Below, piece by piece: positions 3,810 through 45,122 of a DNA stretch of 64,000 bases (positions are counted from its first letter, which is position 1; each line of letters begins with the position of its first letter). Source of the stretch: Salinicoccus carnicancri Crm. GTDB taxonomy: Bacteria > Bacillota > Bacilli > Staphylococcales > Salinicoccaceae. The stretch is taken from the NCBI RefSeq assembly GCF_000330705.1, contig NZ_ANAM01000003.1, positions 124,001 through 188,000 of the forward strand. Direction: 5' to 3'. The notes beneath the pieces were generated by a model that was not told where the DNA came from, did no database searches, and was given only the letters and a program-made list of their open reading frames with translations. The position numbers and the translations under genes are program-made.

Positions 3810-5157
3810 TCTCTACTACAGGTCGCCGGTGTTCATGCAGCACGCGTTCACCAGTGCCTACGGTTTTAAAAAGCGGCGGGAGAGGTACAACGATCATTAC
3901 CACGAAGCCTTCCGGAGATATGTCAGGGGGGACGCCGGCGGGAGGGGGCAGCTGATCCGTCTGATGCGCCACCTCAAGGAGAATATCGGTGCATACAGGG
4001 ATATAGACGTGGATGAGGATGCCATAATGGAAAGTTTCCGGGCCCTGCCGATGACGGTGAAGGAAGACCTCCGTAACGCGCTCGACGACCGGTCGCATAA
4101 GGAAGGGAAGCTCCATGTTTCAAGGACAGGCGGGACGACGGGATACAACCTGGCGGTGTTCGAGTCCGAGGCGGACTGGGCGGTCCGCATGGCCTACCTG
4201 GATTATATAAAATACAGGCAGGGCATCGAACCGTTCTCTAAGCGCGCATCTTTCACCGGGCGGGAAATTACACCGGCAGACCACAGGAATATACTGTGGC
4301 GGTACAACCTGGCCATGAACCAGGCGCTTTACGCCGCAAATCAAATGACACCGGGGAATGTGAAGCATGTATATGGGAACATGAGGTCGTTCAGGCCGGC
4401 TTCGATCGACGGGCTGCCTTCCTCCATCCATATGGTGGCAAAACATATGCTGTCGAACGGGCTCCGGGCGGACTGGGATGTGAAGGCGGTTTTTCCGACG
4501 GCAGAAATACTGCTGCCGCATGCAAAGAAGGATATCGAAGACGCCTTCGATACCGTCGTCATCGACCAGTATGCAAGTTCCGAAGGGGCGCCGTTTCTGT
4601 ATGGAAGCACCGATGACGGGTATACGATCGGTCATGCGACGGGGCTGTTCGAGTTCGAGCGGCGGGGGGAGAACCGGTATGAAATGATCGTTACGAGCTT
4701 CCTGAATTATGCCACGCCGCTTGTCCGCTACAGGATCGGTGACGAAGTCGAGATCCATTCGGACCGGGAGTATTTGAACTCATATGAAGATGATATCGAC
4801 ATCCGGCGGATTTACGGCCGCCGCATGGATTATCTCATCGGGCAGGACGGCAGGAAGGTCATGAACATCATACTGGCCTGGATTGTCGATGGCTTCGAAG
4901 AGAAGGTCGTCCAGTGCCAGATCATCCAGAAAGAGAAAGAGGAGTTTCTGGTGAATATGGTGGTCGAGGATGACTATGATGATTACGCGGATGAATTGGT
5001 GATCCGCGGGCGGCTGGAACGTCAGCTGGGTCCGGATAACCGCTATGTGTTCAATTATGTGGATTTCATCCCCAAGGAGAAGAACGGCAAGGTACGCTTC
5101 ATCATCAATGAGCTTGAGCAGAAGGCAGGGGCCGGCAGCACGGTGCAGTTTGGATGA
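3775..5157 (+). CDS. CapK-like adenylate-forming enzyme, copy 1
   Basis: The 460-residue protein belongs to the PaaK/CapK branch of the ANL superfamily. Visible motifs are the phosphate loop SRTGGTTGYN, the adenine-binding region DQYASSEGAP and a C-terminal KEKNGKVRF lysine loop. Such enzymes activate a carboxylate as acyl-adenylate. In capsule loci the CapK acceptor is generally not established. The start is placed at ATG 3775 (AGGA eight bases before) because the following residues MLKKMMSTSAHNLYY align with the start of the next gene's product. It overlaps the GT4 gene by 35 bases. Confidence 0.8.
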   Translation: MLKKMMSTSAHNLYYRSPVFMQHAFTSAYGFKKRRERYNDHYHEAFRRYVRGDAGGRGQLIRLMRHLKENIGAYRDIDVDEDAIMESFRALPMTVKEDLRNALDDRSHKEGKLHVSRTGGTTGYNLAVFESEADWAVRMAYLDYIKYRQGIEPFSKRASFTGREITPADHRNILWRYNLAMNQALYAANQMTPGNVKHVYGNMRSFRPASIDGLPSSIHMVAKHMLSNGLRADWDVKAVFPTAEILLPHAKKDIEDAFDTVVIDQYASSEGAPFLYGSTDDGYTIGHATGLFEFERRGENRYEMIVTSFLNYATPLVRYRIGDEVEIHSDREYLNSYEDDIDIRRIYGRRMDYLIGQDGRKVMNIILAWIVDGFEEKVVQCQIIQKEKEEFLVNMVVEDDYDDYADELVIRGRLERQLGPDNRYVFNYVDFIPKEKNGKVRFIINELEQKAGAGSTVQFG

Positions 5158-41691: not shown

Positions 41692-43626
41692 ATGCAGTTG
41701 AATGTAGCTCAGAAATTGATCAAGGAACATTTGTTGTCAGGTGAGATGACGCCCGGCGAAGAAATCGGGCTCAAGATCGACCAGACGCTGACGCAGGATG
41801 CGACCGGCACGATGGTGATGCTCGAACTCGAGGCGATGGATCTGGACAGGGTGAAGACGGAAGTTTCGGCTCAGTACGTGGACCACAACCTGATCCAGGA
41901 TGACTACCGTAATCCCGACGACCACATATTCCTAAGGAGTGCCGCCCGGAAGTTCGGCGTACACTACAGCCGGCCGGGCAACGGTGTGAGCCATCCTGTG
42001 CATATGCAGGAGCTGGCCATCCCCGGCAAGACGCTGCTTGGCTCCGACAGCCATACATGTGCAAACGGATGCATGGGCATGCTTGCGATGGGCGCCGGCG
42101 GCATCGATGTCGCGATGGCGATGGCAGGCGAGGCATACCACGTGGAGATGCCGCGTGTGATGGGCGTGAAACTGACCGGTGAGCTGCCTGAGTGGGTCAG
42201 TGCCAAAGACGTGATATTGGAAATGCTCAGACGCCACAGTGTGAAAGGCGGCGTGGGCAGGATCATCGAATACTACGGCCCCGGGCTGGATAATCTGTCT
42301 GCGATGGACCGCCACGTCATTGCCAACATGGGCGCTGAACTCGGTGCAACCGCCACGGTCTTCCCGTCGGATGATGAAGTGAAGCGGTTCATGGCGCAGG
42401 AAGGCCGGGGTGATGAATGGGTTGAACTGAAAGCGGACGAAGGTGCTGAGTACGACGACCATGATGAGATCAACCTGTCCGAACTGGTGCCGCTCATTGC
42501 GAAACCGACCAGCCCGGACAATGTTGTGCCCGTCACTGAAATCGAAGGGGAACCGATCTACCAGTCATACATCGGGTCTTCGGCCAACCCCGGCTACCGC
42601 GACTTTGCGATTGCAAGTCTGATCGTCCAGGGCAGATATATCGCCAACGGCATCTCGTTCGATATCAACCCGACATCAAGACAGCTGCTGCAGCAGCTCG
42701 TCGAAAACGGACATATCGCAAATCTCCTGGGCGCGGGCGGCCGCATGCACCAGGCAGGGTGCAACGGCTGTATCGGCATGGGACAGGCACCGGCCACGGG
42801 ACAGAACAGCCTGCGGACGACGCCGAGGAACTTCCCGGGCCGCTCCGGAACGAAGGAGGACAGCGTATTCCTCTGCAGCCCTGAGATTGCTGCGGCTTCG
42901 GCACTCTACGGAGTGATCACGGATCCGAGGAAGCTGGATATGGACTATCCGGAAGTGGCGGAGCCGAAACCCATCAAAACACAGGAGATGCTCGAGGCGC
43001 CGCCTGAGGACAGCAGTGGCATCGAGCTCGAGAAAGGACCGAATATCTCCGAAATCCCCGACTTCGAGCCGATTGAGGATGATTTCGAACTGCCTGTGCT
43101 CCTCAAGATGGGGGACAATATTTCAACGGATGAAATACTGGCCGGCGGCTCAAGGGTTCTGCCGTACCGCAGTAACATACAGAAAATCAGCACATTCGCC
43201 TTCGAAGGCGTCGATTCGAACTACCACAACCAGGCGATGATAAGACTGGAGCAGGGCGGACATACCGTCGTCGCCGGACACAACTACGGACAGGGATCGA
43301 GCCGTGAGCACGCGGCGCTCGCACCGCGCTACCTGGGCCTCAAGGTCGTGCTGGTCAAGAGTTTCGCCAGGATCCACCTCCAGAATCTGATCAACTTCGG
43401 CATTCTGCCGGTTACTTTCGAGAATGATGACGACTACGAACTGATCGAAGAGGGGGACACCCTCCAGTTCAATAACGTCCGGCAGGCCATCCAGGGAGAT
43501 GATCCGTTTGAAGTGACGCTCAAAAAATCCGGTGATACTGTATTGGTCAGCCACAGCCTCACCCGCCGCCACAAGGACATAATGCTCGCCGGCGGCATCA
43601 TCAACTGGGTCAAACAAAGACAATAG
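41692..43626 (+). CDS. Compact (about 640 aa) aconitate hydratase-type enzyme
   Basis: The 644-residue protein covers both aconitase halves: the iron-sulfur side with GSDSHTCANGCMG and GCNGCIGMG cysteines, and a C-terminal swivel domain (GDNISTDEILAG, GHNYGQGSSREHAAL, FARIHLQNLINFGILP). It is much shorter than the roughly 900-residue AcnA/CitB usual in Staphylococcaceae and resembles the archaeal/clostridial-type aconitases. It is most likely an aconitase, though another hydro-lyase substrate is possible. It is a single gene with its own terminator. Confidence 0.85.
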   Translation: MQLNVAQKLIKEHLLSGEMTPGEEIGLKIDQTLTQDATGTMVMLELEAMDLDRVKTEVSAQYVDHNLIQDDYRNPDDHIFLRSAARKFGVHYSRPGNGVSHPVHMQELAIPGKTLLGSDSHTCANGCMGMLAMGAGGIDVAMAMAGEAYHVEMPRVMGVKLTGELPEWVSAKDVILEMLRRHSVKGGVGRIIEYYGPGLDNLSAMDRHVIANMGAELGATATVFPSDDEVKRFMAQEGRGDEWVELKADEGAEYDDHDEINLSELVPLIAKPTSPDNVVPVTEIEGEPIYQSYIGSSANPGYRDFAIASLIVQGRYIANGISFDINPTSRQLLQQLVENGHIANLLGAGGRMHQAGCNGCIGMGQAPATGQNSLRTTPRNFPGRSGTKEDSVFLCSPEIAAASALYGVITDPRKLDMDYPEVAEPKPIKTQEMLEAPPEDSSGIELEKGPNISEIPDFEPIEDDFELPVLLKMGDNISTDEILAGGSRVLPYRSNIQKISTFAFEGVDSNYHNQAMIRLEQGGHTVVAGHNYGQGSSREHAALAPRYLGLKVVLVKSFARIHLQNLINFGILPVTFENDDDYELIEEGDTLQFNNVRQAIQGDDPFEVTLKKSGDTVLVSHSLTRRHKDIMLAGGIINWVKQRQ

Positions 43627-43636
43627 GACAGGCGAA

Positions 43637-43670
43637 AAACAGCCAAAGCAGATTTCTGCTTTGGCTGTTT
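43637..43670. terminator. Bidirectional terminator between aconitase and TIR genes
   Basis: AAACAGCCAAAGCAGA (43637-43652) pairs perfectly with TCTGCTTTGGCTGTTT (43655-43670) around TT. It sits exactly between the two convergent genes. Confidence 0.9.
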
Positions 43671-44492
43671 TTATGCGTTCACGCTGTTGTGCTTGATGAG
43701 GCTGACAAGCGCGCCGATCATCTCTTCGACATCATGCTGGTCCGTGTTCAGTGCAAACTTGTCGCTCAGTGTCAGACTGAAGGCATCGATCTCGTCTTTT
43801 GAGATGTTATGCCAGATCGGCAGCAGGATGTTCTCCCCTGAACCGGCCACCCGCTGCAGTATGCCGTCCAGTTCATAGTTCGTCCAGTGGCTGTTGATGT
43901 ACGATGTGGACAATACCACGATGAAAAAGCGTGAGTTCGTCAGTCCGCGGTCGATTCTCTGCCGGATGCTCTGGCCCCAGCCGATTTCATCGCTGTCATA
44001 CCAGAGCCGGATGCCTTCATCCTTGAGACCTTCGGTCAGCTTTGTAACGAAATCATCCTTGTCGTCCGTGGCATGCGAGATGAACACATCGAACGGCTTC
44101 TGTTTCGAGTGGTCGATCTTCCGCTGGATCTCCGCCTCTTTGTCCGTATAGAATGATTCAATCTCATCGATATCCTCCCGCATATGCTTGTAGTGGAGTG
44201 TCATGAGACGGTCCCGCTTGTCGTTCAGCATCCTTTCCTTTTTCGCCAGGCTCTTTGAAAGATACGCCTTTTCCTCCTGCGACCTGTTCAGTTTCCGGTT
44301 CGCATTGTCAAAATCACGGATTGCACTGTTCAGTGAAGCACTCGTCTTGCTGTTGTTCAGTTTCTTCGTAGATTTCGATATATTGTTCAAAGCATCCGCT
44401 TCATTCTGCGTCTCCTTCTGCATCTTCCGCCTCAGTGAATCGATCTCACTTTCCAGACGCTTTATCTGGCTCGTCACCAATGATATAGACAT
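43671..44492 (-). CDS. Coiled-coil TIR-domain protein (TirS-like, probable NADase)
   Basis: The 273-residue protein has an N-terminal coiled coil (about 1-130, heptad-rich, Lys/Glu/Asn) followed by a C-terminal TIR domain: FDVFISHATDDKDDF (134-148), the BB-loop LWYDSDEIGWGQSIR, FIVVLSTSYINSHW and the putative catalytic Glu207 in TNYELDG. Bacterial TIR domains of this kind cleave NAD and act in phage defence or as host-signalling decoys (S. aureus TirS). Its promoter contains a perfect LexA box, so it should be DNA-damage inducible. Confidence 0.85.
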   Translation of the reverse strand: MSISLVTSQIKRLESEIDSLRRKMQKETQNEADALNNISKSTKKLNNSKTSASLNSAIRDFDNANRKLNRSQEEKAYLSKSLAKKERMLNDKRDRLMTLHYKHMREDIDEIESFYTDKEAEIQRKIDHSKQKPFDVFISHATDDKDDFVTKLTEGLKDEGIRLWYDSDEIGWGQSIRQRIDRGLTNSRFFIVVLSTSYINSHWTNYELDGILQRVAGSGENILLPIWHNISKDEIDAFSLTLSDKFALNTDQHDVEEMIGALVSLIKHNSVNA

Positions 44493-44527
44493 CCAATCCC
44501 CTCACTTTTATATGTGTTGTGGATTCA

Positions 44528-44556
44528 ATTATAGAATACCGAACATATGTTCGCAA
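44528..44556 (-). promoter_or_regulatory. Sigma-A promoter of the TIR gene
   Basis: On the minus strand TTGCGA (44556-44551) and TATAAT (44533-44528) are separated by exactly 17 bases. The start would be about 30 bases before the TIR ATG. The spacer contains the LexA palindrome. Confidence 0.7.
44540..44553. promoter_or_regulatory. LexA (SOS) box
   Basis: CGAACATATGTTCG is a perfect 14-base palindrome matching the Bacillus/Staphylococcus LexA operator CGAAC-N4-GTTCG. It overlaps the -35/-10 spacer of the TIR promoter, where bound LexA would block polymerase. It also lies about 100 bases upstream of the divergent msrA gene. Confidence 0.85.
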
Positions 44557-44607
44557 TGAAAAAGGACAGATCAAATTAATTTGATTGAAGTGATCATTGA
44601 AACAGGG

Positions 44608-44633
44608 TACTCTGGATAGTACCAGAGTATTTT
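44608..44633 (+). terminator. Terminator-like hairpin in the msrA leader
   Basis: TACTCTGG (44608-44615) pairs perfectly with CCAGAGTA (44622-44629), followed by TTTTC. It lies 18 bases before the msrA start codon, inside its leader, so it may attenuate msrA rather than end another transcript. Confidence 0.5.
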
Positions 44634-44651: not shown

Positions 44652-45122
44652 ATGGAAACTGTATATATTGCCGGCGGATGTCTGTGGGGCGTTGAGGCGT
44701 TCATCAAGACACTGCCGGGTGTAATATCGACCGAAGCGGGGCGTGCGAATGGTGCATCCAGCACTCTGGGGGGTGAATATGACGGCTATGCGGAATGTGT
44801 GAAGACAGAGTTTGATCCGTCGGTGGTCTCTATCAGGGAACTGATGGGATATCTGTTCGAAATCATCGATCCGTACAGTGTGAACCGGCAGGGTGAGGAT
44901 GCCGGCGAGAAATACCGGACCGGCCTTTACAGTGAAGATGCTGGGCACTTGCGGGCGGCGGAGGCATTCATAGATGAAAGAAGCGACCGTGACCGTATCG
45001 CAGTCGAAGTGCTCCCGCTCAAGAATTATGTGAAAAGCGCAGCCGAACATCAGGACAGACTCGACAGATGTCCGGATGACTACTGCCATATCCCGGAAGC
45101 TCTGATGAAAAAGTATAAGTGA
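44652..45122 (+). CDS. msrA: Peptide methionine (S)-S-oxide reductase
   Basis: The 156-residue enzyme has the active-site motif GGCLWGVEA (usual form GCFWG), GEYDGYAECVKTEFDP, and KYRTGLY. It reduces methionine-S-sulfoxide in oxidised proteins using the first cysteine as nucleophile. The Phe to Leu change in GCFWG is conservative. A later Cys pair (RCPDDYC) may provide resolving residues. GGAAGAGGG precedes the ATG. Confidence 0.88.
   Translation: METVYIAGGCLWGVEAFIKTLPGVISTEAGRANGASSTLGGEYDGYAECVKTEFDPSVVSIRELMGYLFEIIDPYSVNRQGEDAGEKYRTGLYSEDAGHLRAAEAFIDERSDRDRIAVEVLPLKNYVKSAAEHQDRLDRCPDDYCHIPEALMKKYK

Follow-up and report, generated by a model that had tools for sequence, protein, structure and literature searches.

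The window, by which we mean the whole 64,000-nt stretch of Salinicoccus carnicancri DNA analysed here, carries on its minus strand a coding sequence of 273 aa (43671..44492; from the ORF list) for a protein with a helical hairpin (residues 3-129) and a TIR domain (residues 134-271). Upstream of this gene, a promoter scan placed a -35 hexamer TTGCGA at 44551..44556 and, across a 17-nt spacer, a -10 hexamer TATAAT at 44528..44533, both on the minus strand and in the same geometry as in the homologue L033. A likely ribosome binding site, GTGAGGGG (44498..44505, minus strand), was read from the sequence 5 nt before the ATG, and this stretch is unchanged across three Salinicoccus sequences. At the other end of the gene, a likely intrinsic terminator consisting of the hairpin AGCCAAAGCAG-AAAT-CTGCTTTGGCT and a T run (43636..43671, minus strand) was also read from the sequence; it is common to the TIR gene and a converging aconitase-like gene (41692..43626, plus strand), and it is absent from the list produced by a terminator scan of the window. 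A divergent MsrA-like gene (44652..45122, plus strand) starts about 100 bp from the box described below; both neighbors were named by eye. An inverted repeat in the leader of the MsrA-like gene, GGTACTCTGGATAGTACC at 44606-44623, is possibly that gene's own operator. With its own promoter, ribosome site, and likely terminator before the aconitase-like gene, the TIR gene looks like a solitary transcription unit, in agreement with a preliminary description of this DNA that had proposed a system carried as a single gene.

A motif search located a LexA-type (SOS) operator, CGAACATATGTTCG, at 44540..44553, listed without a strand. The preliminary description had reported its sequence, strand, and coordinates correctly and had placed it in the spacer between the two hexamers. 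The palindrome does lie within the TTGCGA-17 nt-TATAAT promoter but not wholly in the spacer, as it overlaps the -35 by the three final bases of TTGCGA and then takes up 11 of the 17 spacer bases, counted from the -35 side. The presence of a TIR gene with a LexA-type palindrome in its promoter is thereby confirmed.

We rejected plain motif counting as proof of this site because the counts are near those of controls in both the window and the genome. With up to one mismatch, the bare motif occurs once in the 64-kb window compared to 1.83 expected, and 73 times in the whole genome compared to 91 in the control. The form CRAAC-N4-GTTYG occurs 11 times genome-wide and 11 times in the control, and the exact motif has 5 sites in the 2.67-Mb genome compared to 2 for the reversed control. 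Nor does the promoter consensus by itself reach significance (1 found in the promoter scan, 1.2 expected). Dinucleotide shuffling of the 150-bp stretch upstream of the TIR gene yields the core of the palindrome in 0.1% of cases.

To score sites against the host's own regulon, we used a matrix made from seven host SOS sites, with the TIR site left out. The host has a lexA gene (G000:C6:280079-280690, above the family cut-off in a profile search), and LexA-type sites of its genome precede lexA (CAAACATTTGTTCG), the gene divergent from lexA (CAAACTTATGTTCC), uvrB (CGAACAAATGTTTG), parE (CGAACGTACGTTTG), recA (CGAATATATGTTCG), dinB (CGAACTCACGTTCG), and a prophage-like yolD gene (CGAACATACGTTCT). 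RecA, UvrB, and DNA polymerase IV score above their NCBIfam cut-offs and YolD and NrdI above their Pfam cut-offs; the parE fragment, truncated at the end of its locus, scores below its full-length NCBIfam cut-off. The TIR site scores 22.2 on the matrix, compared to 13.9-17.5 for the seven SOS sites under leave-one-out scoring; the best score elsewhere in the window is 9.6. Two non-SOS sites in the own-genome loci fetched for near-motif matches (44,353 bp) score 14.5 and 13.1; therefore, scores of that size occur by chance. The preliminary description had recognized the palindrome as the LexA operator form, and at 22.2 it indeed fits the motif found at this genome's own SOS genes.

The TIR gene is patchily distributed, occurring in 3/12 genomes of the genus, 3/33 of the family, and 5/157 of the order (at E 1e-12), with the window's genome included each time. 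The copies in S. sediminis and Ca. S. stercoripullorum, which we equated with the other two genus matches by length and place, have 94% and 91% identity, respectively. The promoter and box are kept in 3/3 Salinicoccus sequences found, window included, and the sole box change among them falls in the free center; the whole leader is conserved among these sequences, so the conservation of the box does not stand out. As would be expected of a LexA regulon member, the operator overlaps the core promoter (-35 and spacer), its palindrome has the form of the LexA present in this host, and it is conserved at the Salinicoccus orthologs.

More distant homologs carry similar arrangements. L033, on a Lysinibacillus capsici plasmid and with 46% protein identity, has TTGAAA, AAAACATACGTTCC, and TATAGT at offsets identical to those of the window. 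L021 (same order, 40% identity) has AGAACATACGTTCT 8 nt before a TATAAT, and in L079 (same class) AGAACATTAGTTCT precedes a TATAAT by 11 nt. Based on its rarity in shuffles, its matrix score, its conservation in Salinicoccus, and its recurrence before distant homologs, we consider the box to be more than a chance occurrence. Full-length relatives of the TIR gene are found on plasmids (Lysinibacillus, Priestia, and Niallia) and on phages, and viral contigs contributed 34 loci with relatives, some matching the TIR half only. In the Lysinibacillus plasmid locus (L033 1019-2376), an AbiTii-domain gene lies directly behind the TIR gene. On a Priestia megaterium plasmid (L034 4001-8825), three genes annotated with TIR domains lie in a stretch of about 5 kb, and the copy homologous to the window's gene is without a box.

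To count boxes across the family, we took 58 located homologs, dropped 11 of unsuitable length, and grouped the remaining 47 into 29 clusters at 85% identity. The exact GAAC-N4-GTTC core lies within 150 bp upstream in 4/29 clusters (the window, L021, L079, and L043), compared to 0.036 expected. At a matrix score of at least 12, a cut-off set after L079 had been seen at 12.15, 5 of the 15 Bacillota clusters (L037 included) have a site within 150 bp (0.043 expected) and 8 within 600 bp (0.24 expected); at a score of at least 13.8, these numbers are 4/15 and 7/15, window included. Among the other 14 clusters, 1 has a site within 150 bp and 2 within 600 bp. In a control region, the 600 bp downstream of the gene, sites were present in 0/15 and 0/13 clusters, and flanks totaling 63,024 bp contain 3 sites scoring at least 12, one of them that of L022. 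A looser cut-off of 7 (9/29 clusters compared to 2.33 expected within 150 bp, and 15/29 compared to 8.57 within 600 bp) was tried and replaced by 12 and 13.8.

We revised the set by removing L037 (which has another N-terminus), L062, and L070 and by adding two Bacillota records that came later, L090 and L091. Sites of at least 12 within 600 bp upstream are then present in 8/16 Bacillota clusters, or 7/15 without the window; the number expected for 16 clusters is 0.30 from shuffles or 0.46 from the flank rate. Sites are found in 6/8 clusters of the window's own clade (5/7 without the window) and in 2/16 of the remaining clusters, which here include L042 although it belongs to the window's clade. 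L100 and L101, which match the TIR part only, L080, which has a different upstream frame, and L031, L076, and L077 are outside these counts.

In several loci, the site heads a unit in which the TIR gene comes second. In L029 and L039, this unit consists of a short lysine- and serine-rich ORF and then the TIR gene. In L036 (Enterococcus phage EFC-1), the site precedes an 82-aa ORF that is followed by the TIR gene, for which a separate promoter-like stretch is also visible by eye. In L022 (690-2286, same order), an FRG-domain gene precedes the TIR gene and GGAACAAACGTTCC lies 15 nt before the FRG-gene start codon, beyond 600 bp upstream of the TIR gene. In the prophage-like module of L042 (216-1800), the site heads yolD and then the TIR gene, and a protein with the LexA DNA-binding domain only is encoded divergently from yolD, with two LexA-like sites in the divergent region. 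We assume that the TIR genes of L029, L036, L039, L042, and L022 would come under their LexA-type sites through co-transcription. L043 was set aside as a direct case because both of its sites face a small ORF in divergent orientation. Separately, the Niallia plasmid of L090 has two LexA-like sites 30 bp apart (4139-4182) beside a DUF3800 gene downstream of its TIR gene.

A tree of 28 rows groups the window in a 10-row clade (support 100/100), 8 rows of which have a direct or unit-head site, and a six-row group with a Klebsiella phage (80/98) contains no row with a site. The two box labels on the tree are not clearly clustered, as 55 and 54 of 500 shuffles were as low. Within the window's clade, L034 and L078 have no site of at least 12. 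The preliminary description had looked to orthologs that keep the gene and lose the box as evidence against LexA control; all three Salinicoccus sequences keep it, and these two more distant clade members do not.

We recorded a prediction that about half of new homologs should have a site, and among six further homologs found that 0/6 have one scoring at least 9 within 600 bp. Two of the six are Bacillota by record, L090 on the Niallia plasmid and L091 in Geobacillus phage phiOH2, and L094 is probably so by eye; L092, L096, and L099 have hosts of uncertain or different look, and the gene of L099 is interrupted. L091 and L092 were already in an earlier homolog listing before the prediction was recorded. 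L094, L096, and L099 are the later loci tested, while L093, L095, L097, and L098 are contigs already in the set. Universal SOS wiring of the TIR family is not supported by this out-of-sample result. The expectation that the box would be found upstream of orthologous TIR genes holds for some distant homologs and fails for about half of the other Bacillota, which have no site of at least 12, and for the six later ones. A Gram-negative counterpart was also tried and rejected: across 12 clusters, whose hosts were mostly inferred from likeness to the Klebsiella phage, the best score on an E. coli-type matrix was 9.6, compared to at least 13.5 for true sites. Taken from the sequence, the apparent SOS wiring is recurrent and densest in the window's clade, yet it is not a mark of PDC-S66, the candidate defense family to which the protein is matched below.

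The preliminary description had called the product a TIR-domain protein, and it matches Pfam TIR_2 with an E value of 1.3e-21. Over nearly its full length, it matches the PADLOC model PDC-S66 (2.8e-81; residues 1-267, profile positions 1-281 of 282), a model that 10/10 homologs scanned also match. Its TIR half additionally resembles the ThsB models of PADLOC (4.5e-34). An AlphaFold2 model built with 16 sequences (mean pLDDT 84.1, pTM 0.47) consists of a long helical hairpin (3-47 and 51-129) followed by a TIR domain (134-271); given the low pTM, how the two parts are arranged relative to each other is unsure. The best PDB matches in Foldseek are the TIR domains of AbTir, PdTIR, BtTir, and Brucella BtpA/TcpB, with a TMt of 0.88 and 47% identity to the AbTir TIR domain (7uxu_A). 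Pfam, AlphaFold2, and Foldseek thus agree on the TIR fold expected of an AbTir-type NADase.

D166, W203, and E207, the last being the WxxxE glutamate, are invariant in the 16 aligned sequences, so that the glutamate and its partners are in place as in AbTir-type enzymes. They correspond by motif to AbTir D167, W204, and E208, which PMC11374754 describes as critical for NADase activity; the same paper, citing other work, describes the AbTir counterpart of W203 as required for the cyclic product. Based on this fold and these residues, the protein is a predicted NADase of AbTir type. The earlier suggestions that this TIR domain is of an NAD-cleaving type and that E207 is its catalytic-type residue are both borne out at the level of prediction, given the AbTir-type fold and the match of the invariant E207 to AbTir E208.

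On balance, we lean towards a single-gene, SOS-armed abortive defense in which LexA represses a predicted NADase that DNA damage arms; the preliminary description had proposed such an SOS-wired defense, and its interpretation is partly supported. The starting points for this proposal, namely the operator, the promoter geometry, the host lexA and genes with the SOS motif, the conservation and recurrence of the site, the TIR fold, and the active site, are seen in the sequence. In an undamaged cell, LexA would sit on the palindrome between the -35 and -10 and block RNA polymerase. Upon DNA damage by a lytic phage, prophage induction, or a genotoxin, RecA filaments would lead to LexA cleavage and the TIR protein would be made. 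Its N-terminal helical hairpin may then bring TIR domains together, and E207 would cleave NAD+, probably via a cyclic ADP-ribose product, so that the damaged or infected cell would die or stop before phage release. We infer LexA binding, induction, NADase activity, oligomerization, and phage protection from the features above, as well as phage, and not general damage, as the selected target. This choice of target is the weakest step of the proposal; we make it because of the PDC-S66 match, the patchy presence of the gene, and its plasmid and phage relatives, one of them with an AbiTii-domain gene behind it. It would also seem that a prophage arming a suicide gene on its own induction signal harms itself, which counts against the proposal.

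The box is of the operator class that lies at recA, uvrB, and dinB, and the gene sits in the chromosome between housekeeping-like genes (as named by eye). These facts would also fit a checkpoint toxin, in which LexA control is real and the TIR protein serves the damage response, through growth arrest or persistence during repair in the manner of the LexA-controlled toxins of E. coli, and not phage defense. The presence of the gene in only 3/12 genomes of the genus and 3/33 of the family, its full-length relatives on phages and plasmids, and the AbiTii-domain gene that directly follows the Lysinibacillus homolog all fit defense or mobile-element conflict better, and we think it unlikely that damage response is its main role.

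A smaller chance falls to the possibility that the protein is one half of a signaling system, producing a cyclic ADP-ribose signal with which an unlinked Thoeris ThsA-like effector kills. The ThsB matches to the TIR half point this way, as does the conservation of W203, given the role of its AbTir counterpart in forming the cyclic product (as described in PMC11374754). However, over its full length the protein matches the candidate PDC-S66, and by eye no effector gene was recognized in the 64-kb window.

We regard it as very improbable that the palindrome arose by chance, belongs to another regulator, or serves the divergent MsrA-like gene. The motif counts near controls and the 0/6 result among out-of-sample homologs would be expected under this reading, whereas the position of the box inside the core promoter, its top score in 64 kb, the identical geometry at 46% protein identity in L033, and the enrichment in the first homolog set argue against it. 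Finally, the preliminary description had raised a TirS-like effector, which would dampen animal Toll-like receptor signaling. Although S. aureus TirS is a TIR protein induced by sub-inhibitory fusidic acid (according to PMC5218399), this reading is scarcely credible here, as it draws no support beyond TIR membership, those full-length relatives that have names occur in environmental bacilli and on plasmids and phages, and the cassette context of tirS is not seen around the window's gene, whose neighbors are aconitase- and MsrA-like by eye.

We know of no described regulation of PDC-S66, which the window protein matches over its full length and 10/10 homologs match too; the perfect LexA-type operator in the promoter sets the window's gene apart. 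E. coli has LexA-controlled toxins such as TisB and SymE, which share with our proposal a toxic protein under LexA and differ in being unrelated proteins with no TIR or NAD chemistry. Relative to AbTir and BtTir (PDB 7uxu, 8g83, and 7uxr), the window protein shares the TIR fold and D166, W203, and E207 and differs in the SOS operator at its gene and in having an activity predicted from sequence. Its TIR half resembles the ThsB models of Thoeris, but no adjacent ThsA-like effector was recognized by eye in the ORF lists and the full-length match is to PDC-S66.

PDC-S66 is called uncharacterized in PMC12482510. AbpAB of E. coli is likewise a phage defense responsive to host DNA damage; according to PMC10732053, RecA and LexA are not involved in its mitomycin C activation, whereas the window's gene is predicted to be LexA-controlled. 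S. aureus TirS resembles our protein as a staphylococcal TIR-domain protein with antibiotic-responsive expression and differs in its location on SCC with fusC; neither "SOS" nor "mitomycin" occurs as a word in that paper (PMC5218399). A survey of viral NAD systems (PMC9503650) describes a distinct TIR domain in Firmicutes phages, typically beside a SLATT-domain gene, and raises the limiting of superinfection as a role for TIR domains of viruses. Among the open-licence PMC papers searched, none was found to report a TIR gene under LexA control, and we also could not find the known parts, an SOS operator and a candidate TIR NADase, described in combination there; PMC10763509, from the search on TIR and LexA/SOS, concerns a Klebsiella island.

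For many abortive systems, the trigger is believed to be a phage molecule sensed directly. If our proposal is true, a LexA-gated TIR NADase would instead detect phages through the alarm for DNA damage in general. Cell suicide would be tied to prophage induction, and carriers could lose NAD+ when exposed to DNA-damaging drugs. PDC-S66, so far uncharacterized, gains a concrete and cheaply checked prediction, namely induction by mitomycin C together with NAD+ depletion.

A broader hypothesis, which we hold tentatively and would sooner doubt than accept, is that the Bacillota clade of coiled-coil TIR proteins, a part of PDC-S66, is a standing SOS output. The signal that induces prophages would then also arm NAD+ destruction, lysogens and damaged cells would die before burst, and the SOS modules of mobile elements, such as L042 and EFC-1, might be a weapon between co-resident phages. 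In such a defense, the cell's own LexA would act as the sensor.

Each of the five exact LexA-type sites in the S. carnicancri genome has an ORF start no more than about 60 bp away, these ORFs being the TIR gene, dinB, nrdI, and both copies of a two-copy gene. The nrdI palindrome lies 40 nt upstream of its gene (L001 1501-1959, on the genome's own contig C1) and suggests possible SOS control of ribonucleotide reductase. Both copies of the two-copy gene, on the genome's own contig C6 (at about 6.4 and 10.9 kb; L089 3413-3998 and 7893-8478), are preceded, at about 20 bp from the start codon, by a perfect LexA-type palindrome. The copy tested contains a sigma-70 region 4, pointing to a possible SOS-driven sigma factor.
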